IMG/VR virus record: IMGVR_UViG_3300026257_000495
Location: 1-26,168 of that record
Source of the DNA: a virus
Strand: one strand, 5' to 3'
DNA length: 26,168 bases
Of this stretch, positions 5,186 to 13,052 are shown piece by piece. The notes beneath the pieces are model-generated. The model did not search any database and had not been told where the DNA came from. It saw only the letters and a list, made by a program, of their open reading frames with translations. The position numbers and the translations under genes were made by a program. The stretch's first letter is position 1. Each line of letters starts with the position of its first letter.

Positions 5186-5533
5186 TTATTTTCCGTATTT
5201 GGATAGATCAAGATTTGCCAATGGTTTCTCTATTTTTAAGTCTTTTAACTTAGAATTTGCCACGACTAATTTAGAACCACCTACGACTCTACCATCTAAT
5301 ACATGATAGATAAAGAATACAGTTTTCCATATACCGACTCTTACGATACGGCCTGGCGAACCATCTACTTCAACGACATCATCTTCGTTGTAATCGTTAC
5401 CTAAAAAAACCATTATGCCGTCTACGGCTTCTCTTATGGTATTTTGAAAAATGAGTGTGATTACACCCACAAGAAATAACCAACCATATTGTCCTATCAA
5501 TCCCTCGACAAGACCTTGTGCCTGGTTGTCCAC
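5186..5533 (-). CDS. minimal MscS-like membrane protein (115 aa)
   Basis: Starts at GTG with AAGGAG 8 nt upstream. Residues 17-44 form one hydrophobic segment ending in QNTIREAVDGIMVFLG, which matches the third transmembrane/pore helix of MscS channels. It is followed directly by the MscS beta domain: DYNEDDVVEVDGSPGRIVRV (47-66), GIWKTVFF, DGRVV, and VVANSKL where MscS has its IPNxK motif. The alignment to E. coli MscS is good over TM3 and the beta domain, but TM1-TM2 and the C-terminal vestibule domain are missing (115 against about 286 aa). It could form an oligomeric pore, modify a host MscS by co-assembly, or merely be a scaffold. Its place at the head of the envelope genes, with TATAAATAT motifs in the gaps on both sides, suggests a role in cell-envelope stress or lysis timing. 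The family call is by motif, not by search. Confidence 0.7.
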   Translation of the reverse strand: MDNQAQGLVEGLIGQYGWLFLVGVITLIFQNTIREAVDGIMVFLGNDYNEDDVVEVDGSPGRIVRVGIWKTVFFIYHVLDGRVVGGSKLVVANSKLKDLKIEKPLANLDLSKYGK

Positions 5534-8959: not shown

Positions 8960-9295
8960 TTATTTTGAACTTTTAAGTGTTGTTGTACCACTTAAAGTTC
9001 CACCTTTTACAATTCCTTTAGATTTTTGACTTGCAGGTGTTTTTCTTCTACCTTTTTTATTAGATATTAATCCTATGGGTGCCGATATAGGTTTTCCAAA
9101 AACTGCCTTTTCTCCTGTACCTTTTGGTGTAACAACAATATCAACATAAAATACAGCCCCACTTGACATACCCGTTACTTTTAAAGTAGTCGTTCTCGTA
9201 GTGGTCAAATTTTTAGCCCTTAATCTGACAGCATGACCATACAAGGTTTTTTCTTGTCCTACTCCATCTTTTGGTGTTTGATTTACACTTAACAT
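8960..9295 (-). CDS. stand-alone copy of a small beta module found at the C-terminus of two neighbours (111 aa)
   Basis: Residues about 27-60 (AVRLRAKNLTTTRTTTLKV, then TGMSSGAVFYVDIVVT) align with the C-termini of the 340-aa and 239-aa proteins upstream (TTLVVTGQTSGAVKEFDVKI and TSIIITGQKSGAIYVLRVQV). That makes this gene a free-standing version of a shared small beta module, perhaps Ig-like. The second half is different: a Lys/Arg/Thr-rich tail (KKGRRKTPASQKSKGIVKGG) that looks disordered and basic. The start ATG lies 5 nt after the SET-gene stop, with GGGGA about 11 nt upstream. It is probably a minor virion protein or an assembly partner of the two related proteins. The basic tail is another possible substrate for the neighbouring SET protein; that is inference. 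Confidence 0.68.
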   Translation of the reverse strand: MLSVNQTPKDGVGQEKTLYGHAVRLRAKNLTTTRTTTLKVTGMSSGAVFYVDIVVTPKGTGEKAVFGKPISAPIGLISNKKGRRKTPASQKSKGIVKGGTLSGTTTLKSSK

Positions 9296-9300
9296 ATTAT

Positions 9301-9654
9301 CTAATATTCCCCATAATCATAATCTAATAATAATTCACTTCCTTTTTTTATATCTTTAATTGCTATAAATATAAAAATATCATTATCTACATCTGTTTTC
9401 CAATCCACATTTGCTTCTTTTCCAGAAGAAGATGTTCCATTATATATACACCCAAATCCAAGTGGAATTGTATATTTTTTAAACTTTTCTCCCCTTGGCC
9501 AGTTGTAATAATACCTGGCGAGTTTTTCATCATCCGAAACTTCTAAATAATGACATTCCTCTAACAATTCTCCCTCTTTAATATTTTTTGTACAAAAAAC
9601 TCCATATCCCTGTAATGAAGATTTTCTAATTTCAATTTTATTACTGTGAAACAA
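9301..9654 (-). CDS. SET-domain protein, probable protein-lysine methyltransferase
   Basis: The frame shows the full order of SET motifs: QGYGVFCTKNIKEGELLEE (15-33, the GxG region that helps bind S-adenosylmethionine), GFGCIYNGT (66-74) at the place of the NHS motif, EANVDW (80-85) for the PNA part, FIAIKDIKKGSELLLDYDYG (96-115) with the catalytic tyrosine of the ExLxxDYG motif. There is no pre-SET or post-SET zinc site, as in small viral and bacterial SET proteins such as chlorovirus vSET. NHS is changed to NGT. The first canonical start is TTG at 9652-9654, with no ribosome site; the same frame is open for 27 more codons up to an ATA behind a perfect AGGAGG (see 9655-9735). It lies in the structural block beside proteins with Gly-Lys repeats, which are possible substrates. 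Fold call is strong; activity and target are inference. Confidence 0.82.
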   Translation of the reverse strand: MFHSNKIEIRKSSLQGYGVFCTKNIKEGELLEECHYLEVSDDEKLARYYYNWPRGEKFKKYTIPLGFGCIYNGTSSSGKEANVDWKTDVDNDIFIFIAIKDIKKGSELLLDYDYGEY

Positions 9655-9741: not shown

Positions 9742-9747
9742 CCTCCT
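9742..9747 (-). promoter_or_regulatory. AGGAGG ribosome binding site for the SET gene
   Basis: A full AGGAGG lies 8 nt after the stop codon of the PKD gene. The only possible start at a good distance is the ATA at 9733-9735; the TTG 1 nt after the site is followed at once by a stop. It decides in favour of the longer SET protein. Confidence 0.55.
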
Positions 9748-9755
9748 TTACTCTT

Positions 9756-10208
9756 CTACTTTTCATCTGGTGGTTGTCCAGCGGCCCCATATTGATATAT
9801 TCCTGCTGGTGGTCCTGTTTGTCCTTGTCCGTTACCTCCTGGTGGTGCACCTTTACCTTTACCGTTACCTCCTGGTGGTCCTCCAGCGGCCCCATATTGA
9901 TATATTCCTGCTGGTGGGCCGGGTGGGCTACCCTTACCTTTACCTTTACCTCCTGGTGGTTCTCCTGGACCTTCAGGTGGTAAACTTACTCCAAGACTAA
10001 CCGAAATATAATCTAACTTAGTATCCGTTCCGTAATTATTTGTAGTAGTTAAAGTTACCGTATAGTCTCCTACTACTTCATAAGTGTGTGATGGGCTTGC
10101 TTCCATAGAAGTTTGTCCATCACCGAAATCCCATGAATACGATAAATTTTCTCCCATAGATGTATTAGTAAAATCTACTGTTAATGGGACTATTCCTGAA
10201 ATTGCCAT
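9756..10208 (-). CDS. PKD-domain protein with Gly/Pro/Lys-rich repeat tail (150 aa)
   Basis: Residues about 5-73 form a PKD (Ig-like) domain: GIVPLTVDFTNTS, the signature YSWDFGDGQTS, SPSHTYEVVGDYTVTLTT and a last strand near DYISVSL. The usual first strand of this family (PVAxFxxSP before GxxPLTV) is missing; the ORF begins with MAIS straight before GIVPLTV. The tail (about 78-150) is low-complexity, with GPPAGIYQYGAAG twice and blocks of GKGKG and PPGG, likely extended and flexible. PKD domains serve in protein-protein and carbohydrate contacts on secreted and virion proteins. GGAG precedes the ATG. The gene follows the 185-aa protein in the same frame, separated by TAA-AGG-AGA-TAA-AAT. Likely a virion decoration or tail-tip accessory protein; the exact site is unknown. 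Confidence 0.78.
   Translation of the reverse strand: MAISGIVPLTVDFTNTSMGENLSYSWDFGDGQTSMEASPSHTYEVVGDYTVTLTTTNNYGTDTKLDYISVSLGVSLPPEGPGEPPGGKGKGKGSPPGPPAGIYQYGAAGGPPGGNGKGKGAPPGGNGQGQTGPPAGIYQYGAAGQPPDEK
9778..9917. repeat. two 35-bp direct repeats in the PKD gene tail
   Basis: Identical 35-bp stretches at 9778-9812 and 9883-9917, 105 bp (35 codons) apart, encode the two PPAGIYQYGAAG segments. Between them lie shorter, imperfect Gly/Lys and Gly/Pro codon repeats. Identity at the DNA level suggests recent slippage or unequal exchange. Confidence 0.85.
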
Positions 10209-10220
10209 ATTTTATCTCCT

Positions 10221-10778
10221 TTATGCTTCTTCCATAGTAAAACCAGCTACAGGTGGATATCCTGGTACCATAGACATAATAAAATCTGCCAATGGTGGTG
10301 GTAACATACTAATGCTCATATTAAAATCTGAAACTGGTGGTATGTGTGGATTTGTCATCTCTACAACATTATCTTCTTCAAGAAAAAATTCATATTCTTC
10401 AGTTTCATCTAAATTTTCAGTTGATGGTATTAAATCAATTGTATCCCCTACACCCTCAAGTGATATTTGACCTAAGATATTAGAAATTGAAGATCCATTA
10501 GTAATTTCTGGGGTTTCTACCATAACATATGAATTCATAATTTCTTTTTGGCTTATAAAAGATTCAAGTATAGGCATGTTCTCAATAATTCTTCCCTGTA
10601 AGTTTGATGGTTGTGACTCATCCCAAAGTCCATAATCTATTTCCTCATCACCTAATGCAAACTTAGTAATAACATAAGAATCATCTACTGAACCTGCCAG
10701 TGCATCTGCCAAAAGTTCTCGACCTTTCTTGGTAAAATGTGCTGTTGCAGTTAATGATGTTTTATCTATATATCCCAC
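10221..10778 (-). CDS. KKG/DDEIDY-family structural protein with three PPVAxFxM motifs (185 aa)
   Basis: Fourth of four tandem paralogues. The N-terminal domain (1-about 80) has GYIDKTSLTATAHFTKKGRE, then ITKFALGDEEIDYGLW, IIENMPILE and EIMNSYVM, matching its three siblings. After an acidic stretch (about 130-145) the C-terminus has three short motifs like the first strand of PKD domains: IPPVSDFNM, PPPLADFIM and YPPVAGFTM, ending MEEA. The next gene supplies a PKD domain that lacks this strand. Start is GTG (10776-10778) with AGGA 7 nt upstream. No signal peptide, membrane segment or enzyme motif. I take it as a virion structural protein from its neighbours; the name of the family is not known to me. 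Confidence 0.72.
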   Translation of the reverse strand: MGYIDKTSLTATAHFTKKGRELLADALAGSVDDSYVITKFALGDEEIDYGLWDESQPSNLQGRIIENMPILESFISQKEIMNSYVMVETPEITNGSSISNILGQISLEGVGDTIDLIPSTENLDETEEYEFFLEEDNVVEMTNPHIPPVSDFNMSISMLPPPLADFIMSMVPGYPPVAGFTMEEA

Positions 10779-10786
10779 TTTTTATC

Positions 10787-11275
10787 CTAATTTTTTAAAC
10801 TAAATGGTCCTTTTCCTTTTCCCTTCATACCAGATTTATTGTATTGGGTAGGTTTTAAAGGTATCGGTGTTAAACTATCTCTTGCTTTCATATTGAATTT
10901 CGAAACAGGTGGTATGCCACTCGAAAACATACTAAAATTTGCTACTGGAGGAATAGAAACTATCGGTGCCTCTGGTTGAGTAGATAATACTATACCCTCT
11001 TTAAATAATAGAGAACTCATAATTTCATTATCAGTAATTACTGGTTCTACGATTGGTTGATTATCAATTATCGTACCGAGTGGTCTCACATAATTAGATC
11101 CACTTGGAGTTTCATCCCATAATCCATAATCTATTTCGTCATCAGCTAATGCAAATTTTGTAATTACATGCTCACCATTTTGATTCTCACCAAATACTGC
11201 GGTTCTTAAATAATCTATACCTTTTTTAGTAAGAATTGCGTCCACTGCCAATGAAGTTTTATTTATATATCCCAC
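10787..11275 (-). CDS. KKG/DDEIDY-family structural protein with PPVAxFxM motifs and GKGKG tail (162 aa)
   Basis: Third of the four paralogues: GYINKTSLAVDAILTKKG, VITKFALADDEIDYGLWDE, TIIDNQPIVEP and NEIMSSLLF make up the shared domain (to about residue 92). The rest is short and probably extended: IPPVANFSM and IPPVSKFNM, two more PKD-strand-like motifs, and a tail ending GMKGKGKGPFSLKN. The start is GTG (11273-11275), 2 nt after the upstream stop, without a good ribosome site at the usual distance, so translation is probably coupled. The combination of shared domain plus variable C-terminus suggests a common docking domain with different attachments. The GKGKG stretch recurs in two neighbours. 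Confidence 0.72.
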   Translation of the reverse strand: MGYINKTSLAVDAILTKKGIDYLRTAVFGENQNGEHVITKFALADDEIDYGLWDETPSGSNYVRPLGTIIDNQPIVEPVITDNEIMSSLLFKEGIVLSTQPEAPIVSIPPVANFSMFSSGIPPVSKFNMKARDSLTPIPLKPTQYNKSGMKGKGKGPFSLKN

Positions 11276-12029: not shown

Positions 12030-13052
12030 TTAACCTGTAAATGTATCAAGTGAAGTATCCGTTCCTGCATCTATATCTAACGAAGGTGTATATGATGTAG
12101 ATCTAAATGTTATCTTAACATCAAATTCCTTAACTGCTCCTGAAGTCTGTCCCGTAACAACTAAAGTTGTTTTTGCTGGACTTGAATTAGAAGTAAGTCG
12201 TTTTGGATATAAAGCAATTCTTCCACTTTGTGTTGGTGCAAATTGTGCATTTGCATGTGCAAAAGTTCCGTTAGACACCACACAGTCTGATATAGTCTGT
12301 GAAAGGTGTTGAACTGAATGTACAAATGGATACCATAAACCAGTAGTACCATTATTAGGTACTGGAATGTTTAGATACTGACTTTCAGATGAAGTATTAG
12401 CATTAGGTGCACCTTTTCCTTTACCTTTACCAAATGCTCCTGGTCCCTGAGCTCCAAGTATTTCTTGTATCTGTTGGCTAGCTACCTGTGCTGGATCCAC
12501 CCAAAGTGGTGCCAATACTACTTGAGTTGTATCTAATAATGTTAAGGTAAATCTTTCTCCTGCATATCCATTAGAATAAATAGAGTCTGGTCCTCCACTA
12601 TAATCAACTGTAAGTTCATGATTATCTACATGACCTACACCAAATTGAACAGGTACACCAAGAAAAGTATTAGTGTTTCCAACCTGAACTCTTGTTCCAC
12701 CAGCTCCAGCTTCATCTAATGCATACCACTTTAGACTTTTTAATTGTCTAACAGAATCTTGTAATTCTATTAGTTTAGCCATTGCCTGAACTCCGTCTGA
12801 CCTCGATACGAGTTTATATTTCATAATCTCTGAAGGATCGTTGAAGGGTTCAAGGGTTGGTAAGTTATCAATTACTGCACCATAGAAATCCGTTCCTTTT
12901 GTATGAGTTGTGTCCCACAATCCATAGTCAATTTCGTCATCCCCAAGTGCAAATTTAGCAACATTAAAATCTCCACCAGTTGACAAAATCTCTCGACCTT
13001 TCTTTGTCAAAATAGCGTCTAATGTTCGGCTTGAATTATTTAAATATCCCAT
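12030..13052 (-). CDS. KKG/DDEIDY-family structural protein, longest paralogue (340 aa)
   Basis: First and longest of the four paralogues. The N-domain reads GYLNNSSRTLDAILTKKGRE, FNVAKFALGDDEIDYGLWDT, FYGAVIDNLPTLEP and EIMKYKLVS. A middle region (about 110-230) is unique and holds a Gly/Lys stretch GAFGKGKGKGAP near residue 210. The C-terminal part (about 280-325) is the shared beta module: SGRIALYPKRLTS, then TTLVVTGQTSGAVKEFDVKI. AGGAG lies 8 nt before the ATG. The gene follows the longest gap in the window (108 bp), so it may head a transcript. Probably a virion structural protein. The conserved N-domain resembles unnamed proteins of marine T4-like phages as I recall them; no function has been read from it. 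Confidence 0.72.
   Translation of the reverse strand: MGYLNNSSRTLDAILTKKGREILSTGGDFNVAKFALGDDEIDYGLWDTTHTKGTDFYGAVIDNLPTLEPFNDPSEIMKYKLVSRSDGVQAMAKLIELQDSVRQLKSLKWYALDEAGAGGTRVQVGNTNTFLGVPVQFGVGHVDNHELTVDYSGGPDSIYSNGYAGERFTLTLLDTTQVVLAPLWVDPAQVASQQIQEILGAQGPGAFGKGKGKGAPNANTSSESQYLNIPVPNNGTTGLWYPFVHSVQHLSQTISDCVVSNGTFAHANAQFAPTQSGRIALYPKRLTSNSSPAKTTLVVTGQTSGAVKEFDVKITFRSTSYTPSLDIDAGTDTSLDTFTG

Follow-up and report, generated by a model that had tools for sequence, protein, structure and literature searches.

Candidate donor strands next to a phage PKD protein that is encoded without strand A

The locus described in this study raises the question of how a PKD protein can be encoded without the first strand of its fold, while the proteins of neighbouring genes carry several copies of a motif that resembles this very strand. 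It is located on the minus strand of a 26,168-base stretch of viral DNA (the whole of which is termed the window) as part of a tail-region gene run. In this run, the genes of a gp25-like baseplate wedge protein (GPW_gp25, E 4.3e-12), of a 643-residue protein related to a baseplate wedge protein from the Flavobacterium phage immuto and of several further ORFs, one of them 2844 residues long, are followed by those of four paralogues of 340, 239, 162 and 185 residues and by that of the 150-residue PKD protein (Table 1). A search against PHROGs provided no useful function for the paralogues or for three further proteins of the window. Promoter matches in the window were below the number obtained in shuffled sequences (15 compared to a mean of 20.2), and four terminator-like sites were found compared to a shuffled mean of 2.1.

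The surroundings of the PKD gene display several features that are reported here in their own right. The gene is adjoined by an ORF with a SET domain (9301-9654, TTG start; PF00856, E 8.9e-11); a link of this gene to Lys-rich PKD tails was tested and dropped, SET-like ORFs, as recognized by pattern, being present in two of the 30 loci described below. A 115-residue ORF elsewhere in the window (5186-5533) resembles by eye part of an MscS-type channel. Runs of the GKGKG type were recognized by eye in three neighbouring genes, at 9756-9995 in the PKD tail, at 10808-10831 in the tail of the 162-residue protein and at 12411-12431 in the 340-residue protein, which gives the impression of a low-complexity cassette that has spread between them. 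The region encoding the PKD tail (9745-9965) also contains imperfect direct repeats, with 71 nucleotides found twice and 47 nucleotides found three times.

Table 1. Coordinates of features of the window and loci with a stand-alone Ig-like ORF
Feature	Position	Strand	Remarks
Paralogue 1, 340 aa	12030..13052	-	C-terminal segment Ig-like by eye; strand motifs absent
Paralogue 2, 239 aa	11278..11997	-	C-terminal segment Ig-like by eye; strand motifs absent
Paralogue 3, 162 aa	10787..11275	-	N-terminal domain conserved (KFALxDDEIDYGLW); two strand motifs in the C-terminal tail
Paralogue 4, 185 aa, proposed donor scaffold	10221..10778	-	N-terminal domain, middle region, tail with three strand motifs
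IPPVANFSM, paralogue 3	10928..10954	-	Top score of 8,313 8-mers
IPPVSKFNM, paralogue 3	10889..10915	-	Weakest strand A match, rank 19
Motif 1, IPPVSDFNM, paralogue 4	10317..10343	-	Second P and F invariant in 30/30 orthologues; strand-A slot in model
Motif 2, PPPLADFIM, paralogue 4	10275..10301	-	Starts 14 residues past motif 1 in 10/11 M-type loci
Motif 3, YPPVAGFTM, paralogue 4	10233..10259	-	Ends 3 residues short of C-terminus; counterpart fused to whole PKD in L009/L010/L125
Junction TAA-AGG-AGA-TAA-AAT-ATG	10206..10223	-	Donor-gene stop, Shine-Dalgarno AAAGGAG, PKD-gene start
PKD ORF without strand A, 150 aa	9756..10208	-	PKD_4 match
PKD domain, residues 7-66	10011..10190	-	PKD_4 positions 20-79 of 85, E 1.4e-17
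Variable low-complexity C-terminal tail of PKD protein	9759..9995	-	PPAGIYQYGAAG twice, GKGKG runs
111-aa Ig-like ORF	8960..9295	-	RLRAKNL...SGAVFYVDIVV resembles C-terminal segment of paralogues 1-2 (by eye); M-type loci only
Loci with stand-alone Ig-like ORF	window 8960-9295; L121, L122, L123, L124, L128, L129, L131, L132		

The PKD protein and the strand motifs of the window

The 150-residue protein matches the PKD_4 profile (PF18911) with a score of 64 bits, at a curated cut-off of 27. This match is confined to the part of the profile listed in Table 1, which bears out the first-pass annotation of the locus, where it was noted that the ORF begins behind the first strand of the domain (strand A). 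A complete PKD_4 domain including strand A was not found in the chain, where seven residues precede the PLTV sequence, and the protein displays what is expected of an acceptor in donor-strand complementation, a sandwich without a strand that is typical of its fold family.

The short start is shared by the relatives described below. In 26 of the 28 scored PKDs of the family (those found by a pattern that missed the proteins of L121, L151, L152 and L154), strand B is located 5-17 residues from the start, and none of 46 unrelated viral PKDs, which come from loci reached with PKD queries devoid of strand A (apart from a single one of the 19 rows behind the second query, which contains the end of this strand), begins within 18 residues of it. 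Two of the scored PKDs of the family depart from this, the fused one of L125 and that of L131 (on the same contig as L014), the latter with a long N-terminus and possibly a Gly-rich strand of its own, in a locus that has nonetheless kept three motifs. Among the proteins missed by the pattern, the PKD of L121 starts 7 residues ahead of strand B and those of L151, L152 and L154 start 22 residues ahead of it, with no clear strand A discernible by eye. Following the domain, the C-terminal tails in relatives are Gly-rich, poly-Q or Hint. In one such protein (L011, 6570-7232), a Pretoxin-Hint domain (PF07591, E 2.7e-24) ends seven residues short of the C-terminus.

The five PPVAxFxM motifs described in the two ORFs by the first-pass annotation were all located at the positions reported there, with the earlier start of IPPVANFSM at 10925 including one residue more. 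Their similarity to strand A was scored with a matrix derived from this strand in 35 unrelated viral PKDs, 11 of the 46 control sequences having been left out by eye, either for an F that is not at its usual position or as near-copies. Among 8,313 8-mers from 25 proteins of the window, the motifs occupy ranks 1, 2, 6, 8 and 19, with PPVANFSM and PPVAGFTM as the highest two. The 162- and 185-residue proteins together contain two sites of at least 16 bits, compared to a mean of 0.0017 (maximum 1) after shuffling, and four sites of at least 6.6 bits (shuffled mean 0.22, maximum 4). At a threshold of at least 3.7 bits, six sites are found, one of which is not a motif (shuffled mean 0.88, maximum 5), and PPVSKFNM is weak if taken singly, its score of 3.73 being lower than that of several unrelated 8-mers. 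In a near-identical record of 106 kb, a scan of 93 non-overlapping ORFs for the pattern PPx[AST]xFxM gave five hits, all of them in the two putative donor proteins, and the 150-residue ORF is the one PKD_4 match of this record, which may be incomplete. A comparison to a library of viral folds provided no further information on the motifs. As a separate observation, about 50 kb of the 106-kb record (L293-L296) resemble sugar-nucleotide and glycan genes, as judged by eye from protein starts.

A distinct property of the motifs concerns the second residue after the conserved F (F+2), which is Ala or Gly in 27 of the 35 in-cis strands compared to M, F, Y or W in 63 of 76 tail matches. The resulting alternation A/S/T-x-F-x-M/W/F/Y, as seen in the sequences, might provide the donor with one additional anchor that faces inward.

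Pairing and conservation in related loci

A scan of viral contigs with profiles of the paralogues yielded 38 loci, 30 of them distinct, with an orthologue of the 185-residue protein (at least 48% identity); these were kept from a set of 80, whose other 42 members are weaker matches of the single-gene type that were not counted. Clustering at 80% identity divides the N-terminal bodies of the 30 orthologues into 21 groups, and the median identity between pairs of bodies is 60%. In all 30 cases, the tail contains motifs and the orthologue is followed by a separate PKD gene. The motif, whose lack of conservation in homologues the first-pass annotation had named as an argument against its proposal, is thus conserved throughout the distinct orthologues, and it constitutes the conserved matching strand on another polypeptide that would be expected of a donor. 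The 30 tails contain 64 motif matches, compared to a mean of 2.5 (maximum 8) in shuffled tails, and the bodies contain none. In motif 1, P and F are found in 30 of 30 orthologues and F+2 is in each of them M, F, Y, W or L. One motif was found by pattern in four orthologues, two in 18 and three in eight, in counts that miss variants such as motif 1 of L151, L152 and L154 and the final motif in L125 and in L146. In 23 of the 30 orthologues, 2-7 residues separate the end of the last recognized motif from the C-terminus. The dN/dS ratio amounts to 0.33 for the motifs, 0.28 for the body and 0.69 for the linkers, as calculated over 18 pairs from 13 of the 30 orthologues, which were chosen for equal tail length (the pair L141/L142 was dropped for unequal length), values that are descriptive because pairs share branches.

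The number of motifs and the residue at F+2 distinguish groups of loci. Eleven loci with FxM motifs are referred to as M-type, and in these paralogue 3 carries a further motif in all eight cases where the gene was found by script. The W/F/Y-type loci contain two motifs, which are usually separated by 19-20 residues but lie at a large distance from each other in L143 and L145, and their paralogue 3 carries no motif wherever the gene was found. L156 is of mixed type, and L151, L152 and L154 are divergent. Two strand-less PKD genes are found together with the two distant motifs in L019 and L021 (L143 and L145), and in most loci the motifs outnumber the PKD genes. An Ig-like ORF of the kind located at 8960-9295 of the window is present in nine of the 11 M-type loci, with the contigs of the other two breaking off directly behind the PKD gene. 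It was absent from the 19 remaining loci, four of which are on contigs that stop at the same place. In 63 loci with a single copy of the family gene (L025-L087), no PKD signature was found on the same strand in the stretch examined, and 62 of the 63 showed no motif match in that stretch.

All relatives with the pair of genes are uncultured contigs, and searches of an annotated phage collection by blastn and tblastn revealed no cultured phage containing it. In this collection, blastn of the region gave no match, tblastn of the 185-residue protein detected its N-terminal part in six records and tblastn of the PKD protein led to one record (1e-5). A scan of genome contigs gave four matches in metagenome-assembled genomes, and the family of the 185-residue protein shows a weak profile match to cohesin (E 0.009). 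The N-terminal domain of the family is also found in Flavobacterium phage immuto and Microcystis phage Mel-JY01, with 43-45% identity over about 90 residues, and its homologue in immuto is encoded three genes upstream of a tail fiber gene. Both records contain one match to this domain, unlike the window with its four paralogues, and a tblastn search of the two records with the PKD protein of the window gave no match.

Fused relatives and structure predictions

The search of relatives for fused forms, which had been suggested in the first-pass annotation, was successful in L009 and also in L010 and L125, together representing one relative, where motif 3 runs directly into a complete PKD domain that is matched by PKD_4 from position 4. 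Because this domain follows straight on, motif 3 of L009 is strand A by position; its residue at F+2 is a Glu. A tree calculated for 28 PKDs of the family and 22 controls groups the family together (92/89, not starred) and places the fused PKD within the free ones (with values of 94/88 and 83/81 at forks close by), a nesting that is suggestive only. A tree in which the 26 free PKDs form a clade is not rejected (AU p 0.07), and at this value the fused PKD appears from the sequences to be a likely re-fusion from a free form, short of proven. The splitting of a once-fused gene, which had been offered as an alternative to strand donation, is possible as an origin of the pair and as such compatible with a donor-strand mechanism.

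A model of the PKD protein alone (based on 23 rows) displays blocks of pLDDT of 83-94 over residues 1-70, with the first strands at residues 2-6 and 9-15. It aligns to the solved structures 4u6t, 1l0q and 6aem from past their strand A, as illustrated by 6aem_A, where residues 9-73 of the model superimpose on 17-85 of the chain (Z 8.3, 65 aligned, rmsd 1.5). The first-pass annotation had considered a PKD ORF that supplies its own first strand as evidence against its proposal, and in this respect the model leaves the strand-A residues of the solved PKDs uncovered but forms a short strand at residues 2-6. In light of this short strand and the confident prediction, the PKD protein may be stable without a donor.

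In a second model, the ORFs of the window were read through with TAA translated as Gln, resulting in a single chain of 265 residues (39 rows) rather than a complex. Its pLDDT is 85-96 over residues 201-260 and poor elsewhere (mean 61.8), with 50-51 in the block containing motif 1 and about 40 at motif 3. All 50 listed alignments of this model to solved chains begin at residues 137-150, around motif 1. On 6aem_A, residues 144-263 align to 2-85 (Z 12.6, 80 aligned, rmsd 1.8), and compared to the PKD protein alone, Z is 12.4 versus 8.7 on 4l9d_A and 13.2 versus 9.7 on 1l0q_A, while the Foldseek TM-score on 4l9d_A is 0.82 versus 0.59. The predictor places motif 1, across a disordered loop, in the slot of strand A, in preference to the adjacent motif 3. 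Because its local pLDDT in this one chain is around 50, the placement is a pointer and not a proof, and the low values at both motifs render the choice between them unreliable.

Proposed docking of the PKD protein and its alternatives

The proposal that the neighbouring proteins complement the PKD protein with a donor strand is at this stage the best explanation of the locus in light of the conserved motifs and the fused relatives, with the qualification that the model selects motif 1 and not the last motif. Sequences and models together suggest that the motifs probably act as donor strands, which complete the PKD domain in trans and dock the PKD protein on a scaffold of the tail region. The scaffold would be the 185-residue protein and, in the clade of the window, also the 162-residue protein, whose C-terminal tails contain copies of PKD strand A, three in the former and two in the latter. 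The 150-residue protein would provide a PKD domain that is made without this strand, with donor and acceptor being translated separately from adjacent genes. Addition of a strand motif to the edge of strand B would then complete the PKD sandwich in trans and leave one or more PKD proteins with variable tails docked non-covalently on the scaffold. The association in trans, its stoichiometry, the location in the virion and a role in display or adhesion are features that we infer for this arrangement. Since the PKD tails vary freely, they would fit a displayed module.

Donor-strand exchange is known from chaperone-usher and type V pili. It is also described for TasA fibres in the accessible part of one account (PMC9674648). 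As far as these sources extend, the pili and TasA fibres share with the proposed pair a β-sandwich subunit that is completed by the extended strand of another polypeptide. However, subunits in the former donate along a fibre, whereas donor and acceptor in the window are different proteins, and the window is further distinguished by the presence of several strands in one donor tail, by a PKD domain without strand A as acceptor and by its phage origin. Phage proteins with PKD domains comprise the decoration proteins T4 Hoc and Sf14 gp20, adhesins of gut phages and a receptor-binding protein of a Bacillus phage (PMC11821841, PMC13370021, PMC11406892, each in its accessible text). Common to these proteins and the window is a PKD domain in a phage, for some with a proposed role in adhesion, the pair in the window being known from its genes. 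In those parts of the sources, the PKD domains are located within larger chains and no missing strand is mentioned, in contrast to the stand-alone domain of the window, which lacks strand A and is encoded beside a protein with spare strands. By analogy to the PKDs of other phages (PMC13370021, PMC11821841), the PKD protein may serve in adhesion. A phage system combining donor strands and PKD domains in this manner did not emerge from literature searches, as judged from the open papers listed and from selected passages.

Among the alternatives, it is unlikely that the PKD protein is able to fold and function in the absence of strand A and that the motifs, although they go back to a PKD gene that was split, have since acquired a different binding partner, for instance a different tail protein or the surface of the host. 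Such behaviour would agree with the confident model of the PKD protein alone and with the excess of motifs over PKD genes, and the distinct F+2 residue of the donors could mean a different binding site. A bulkier residue at this position could, however, equally anchor a donor in trans, and the co-occurrence of shortened PKD genes with motifs in all 30 loci, the absence of comparably short starts in the unrelated viral PKDs and the position of motif 1 in the strand-A slot of the model argue against another partner.

We regard as improbable a scenario with different acceptors, where one motif would be used by the PKD protein and the others, in M-type loci, by the Ig-like ORF. The restriction of this ORF to M-type loci, in which paralogues 3 and 4 also contain additional motifs, provides a correlation that is confounded by the two clades. 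The scenario is opposed by the resemblance of every motif to strand A of PKD domains, and nothing indicates that the Ig-like ORF would lack a strand.

Still less credible is a covalent fusion by stop-codon readthrough or frameshifting, which would supply strand A in cis. It draws on the covalently fused proteins of L009 and L010 and on the window itself, where the last motif and the PKD ORF share a reading frame and are separated by MEEA-TAA-AGG-AGA-TAA-AAT-ATG, exactly as described in the first-pass annotation. Two TAA codons intervene at this junction, and the common frame holds for the window but not for the family, with relative frames 0, 1 and 2 found in 11, 7 and 12 of the 30 loci. Since all three frames occur, readthrough is not the rule. 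In 27 of the 30 junctions, the start of the PKD gene is found 10-20 nucleotides after the end of the donor gene and the gap contains a Shine-Dalgarno-like stretch (GGAG in 26, AGGA in L145), and in L151, L152 and L154 the two ORFs overlap. Reading through the ORFs also does not improve the Pfam match compared to the PKD protein alone, with 65.7 versus 64 bits in the window, 65.9 versus 65.5 in L122, 58.6 versus 61 in L016 and 63.6 versus 66.7 in L153, and in none of these four did the PKD_4 profile reach motif 3, which a linker that is too long could explain.

Finally, we consider it equally improbable that the motifs are functionless leftovers of degraded tandem PKD repeats, as might be read from counts that differ from clade to clade, with two or three motifs in paralogue 4 and between zero and two in paralogue 3, in view of a dN/dS of the motifs that is near that of the body and about half that of the linkers, of the invariant P and F of motif 1 and of intervals between motifs that amount to 14 or 19-20 residues in the majority of loci.

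The donation of strands in trans could be extended to an evolvable docking code, a tentative proposition to which we would assign somewhat less than an even chance. In such a code, tails with two to five spare A-strands would dock several copies or kinds of strand-less PKDs by means of a bulky anchor at F+2 (M, W, F or Y), and the modules could be swapped, multiplied and re-fused while the scaffold remains unchanged. If true, the exchangeable modules would be the Gly-rich, poly-Q and Hint tails. A scaffold offering an array of strands to a different, strand-less domain would be a new mode of non-covalent attachment of exchangeable modules to the virion, and donor motif and PKD would constitute a natural docking pair of a peptide and a protein.
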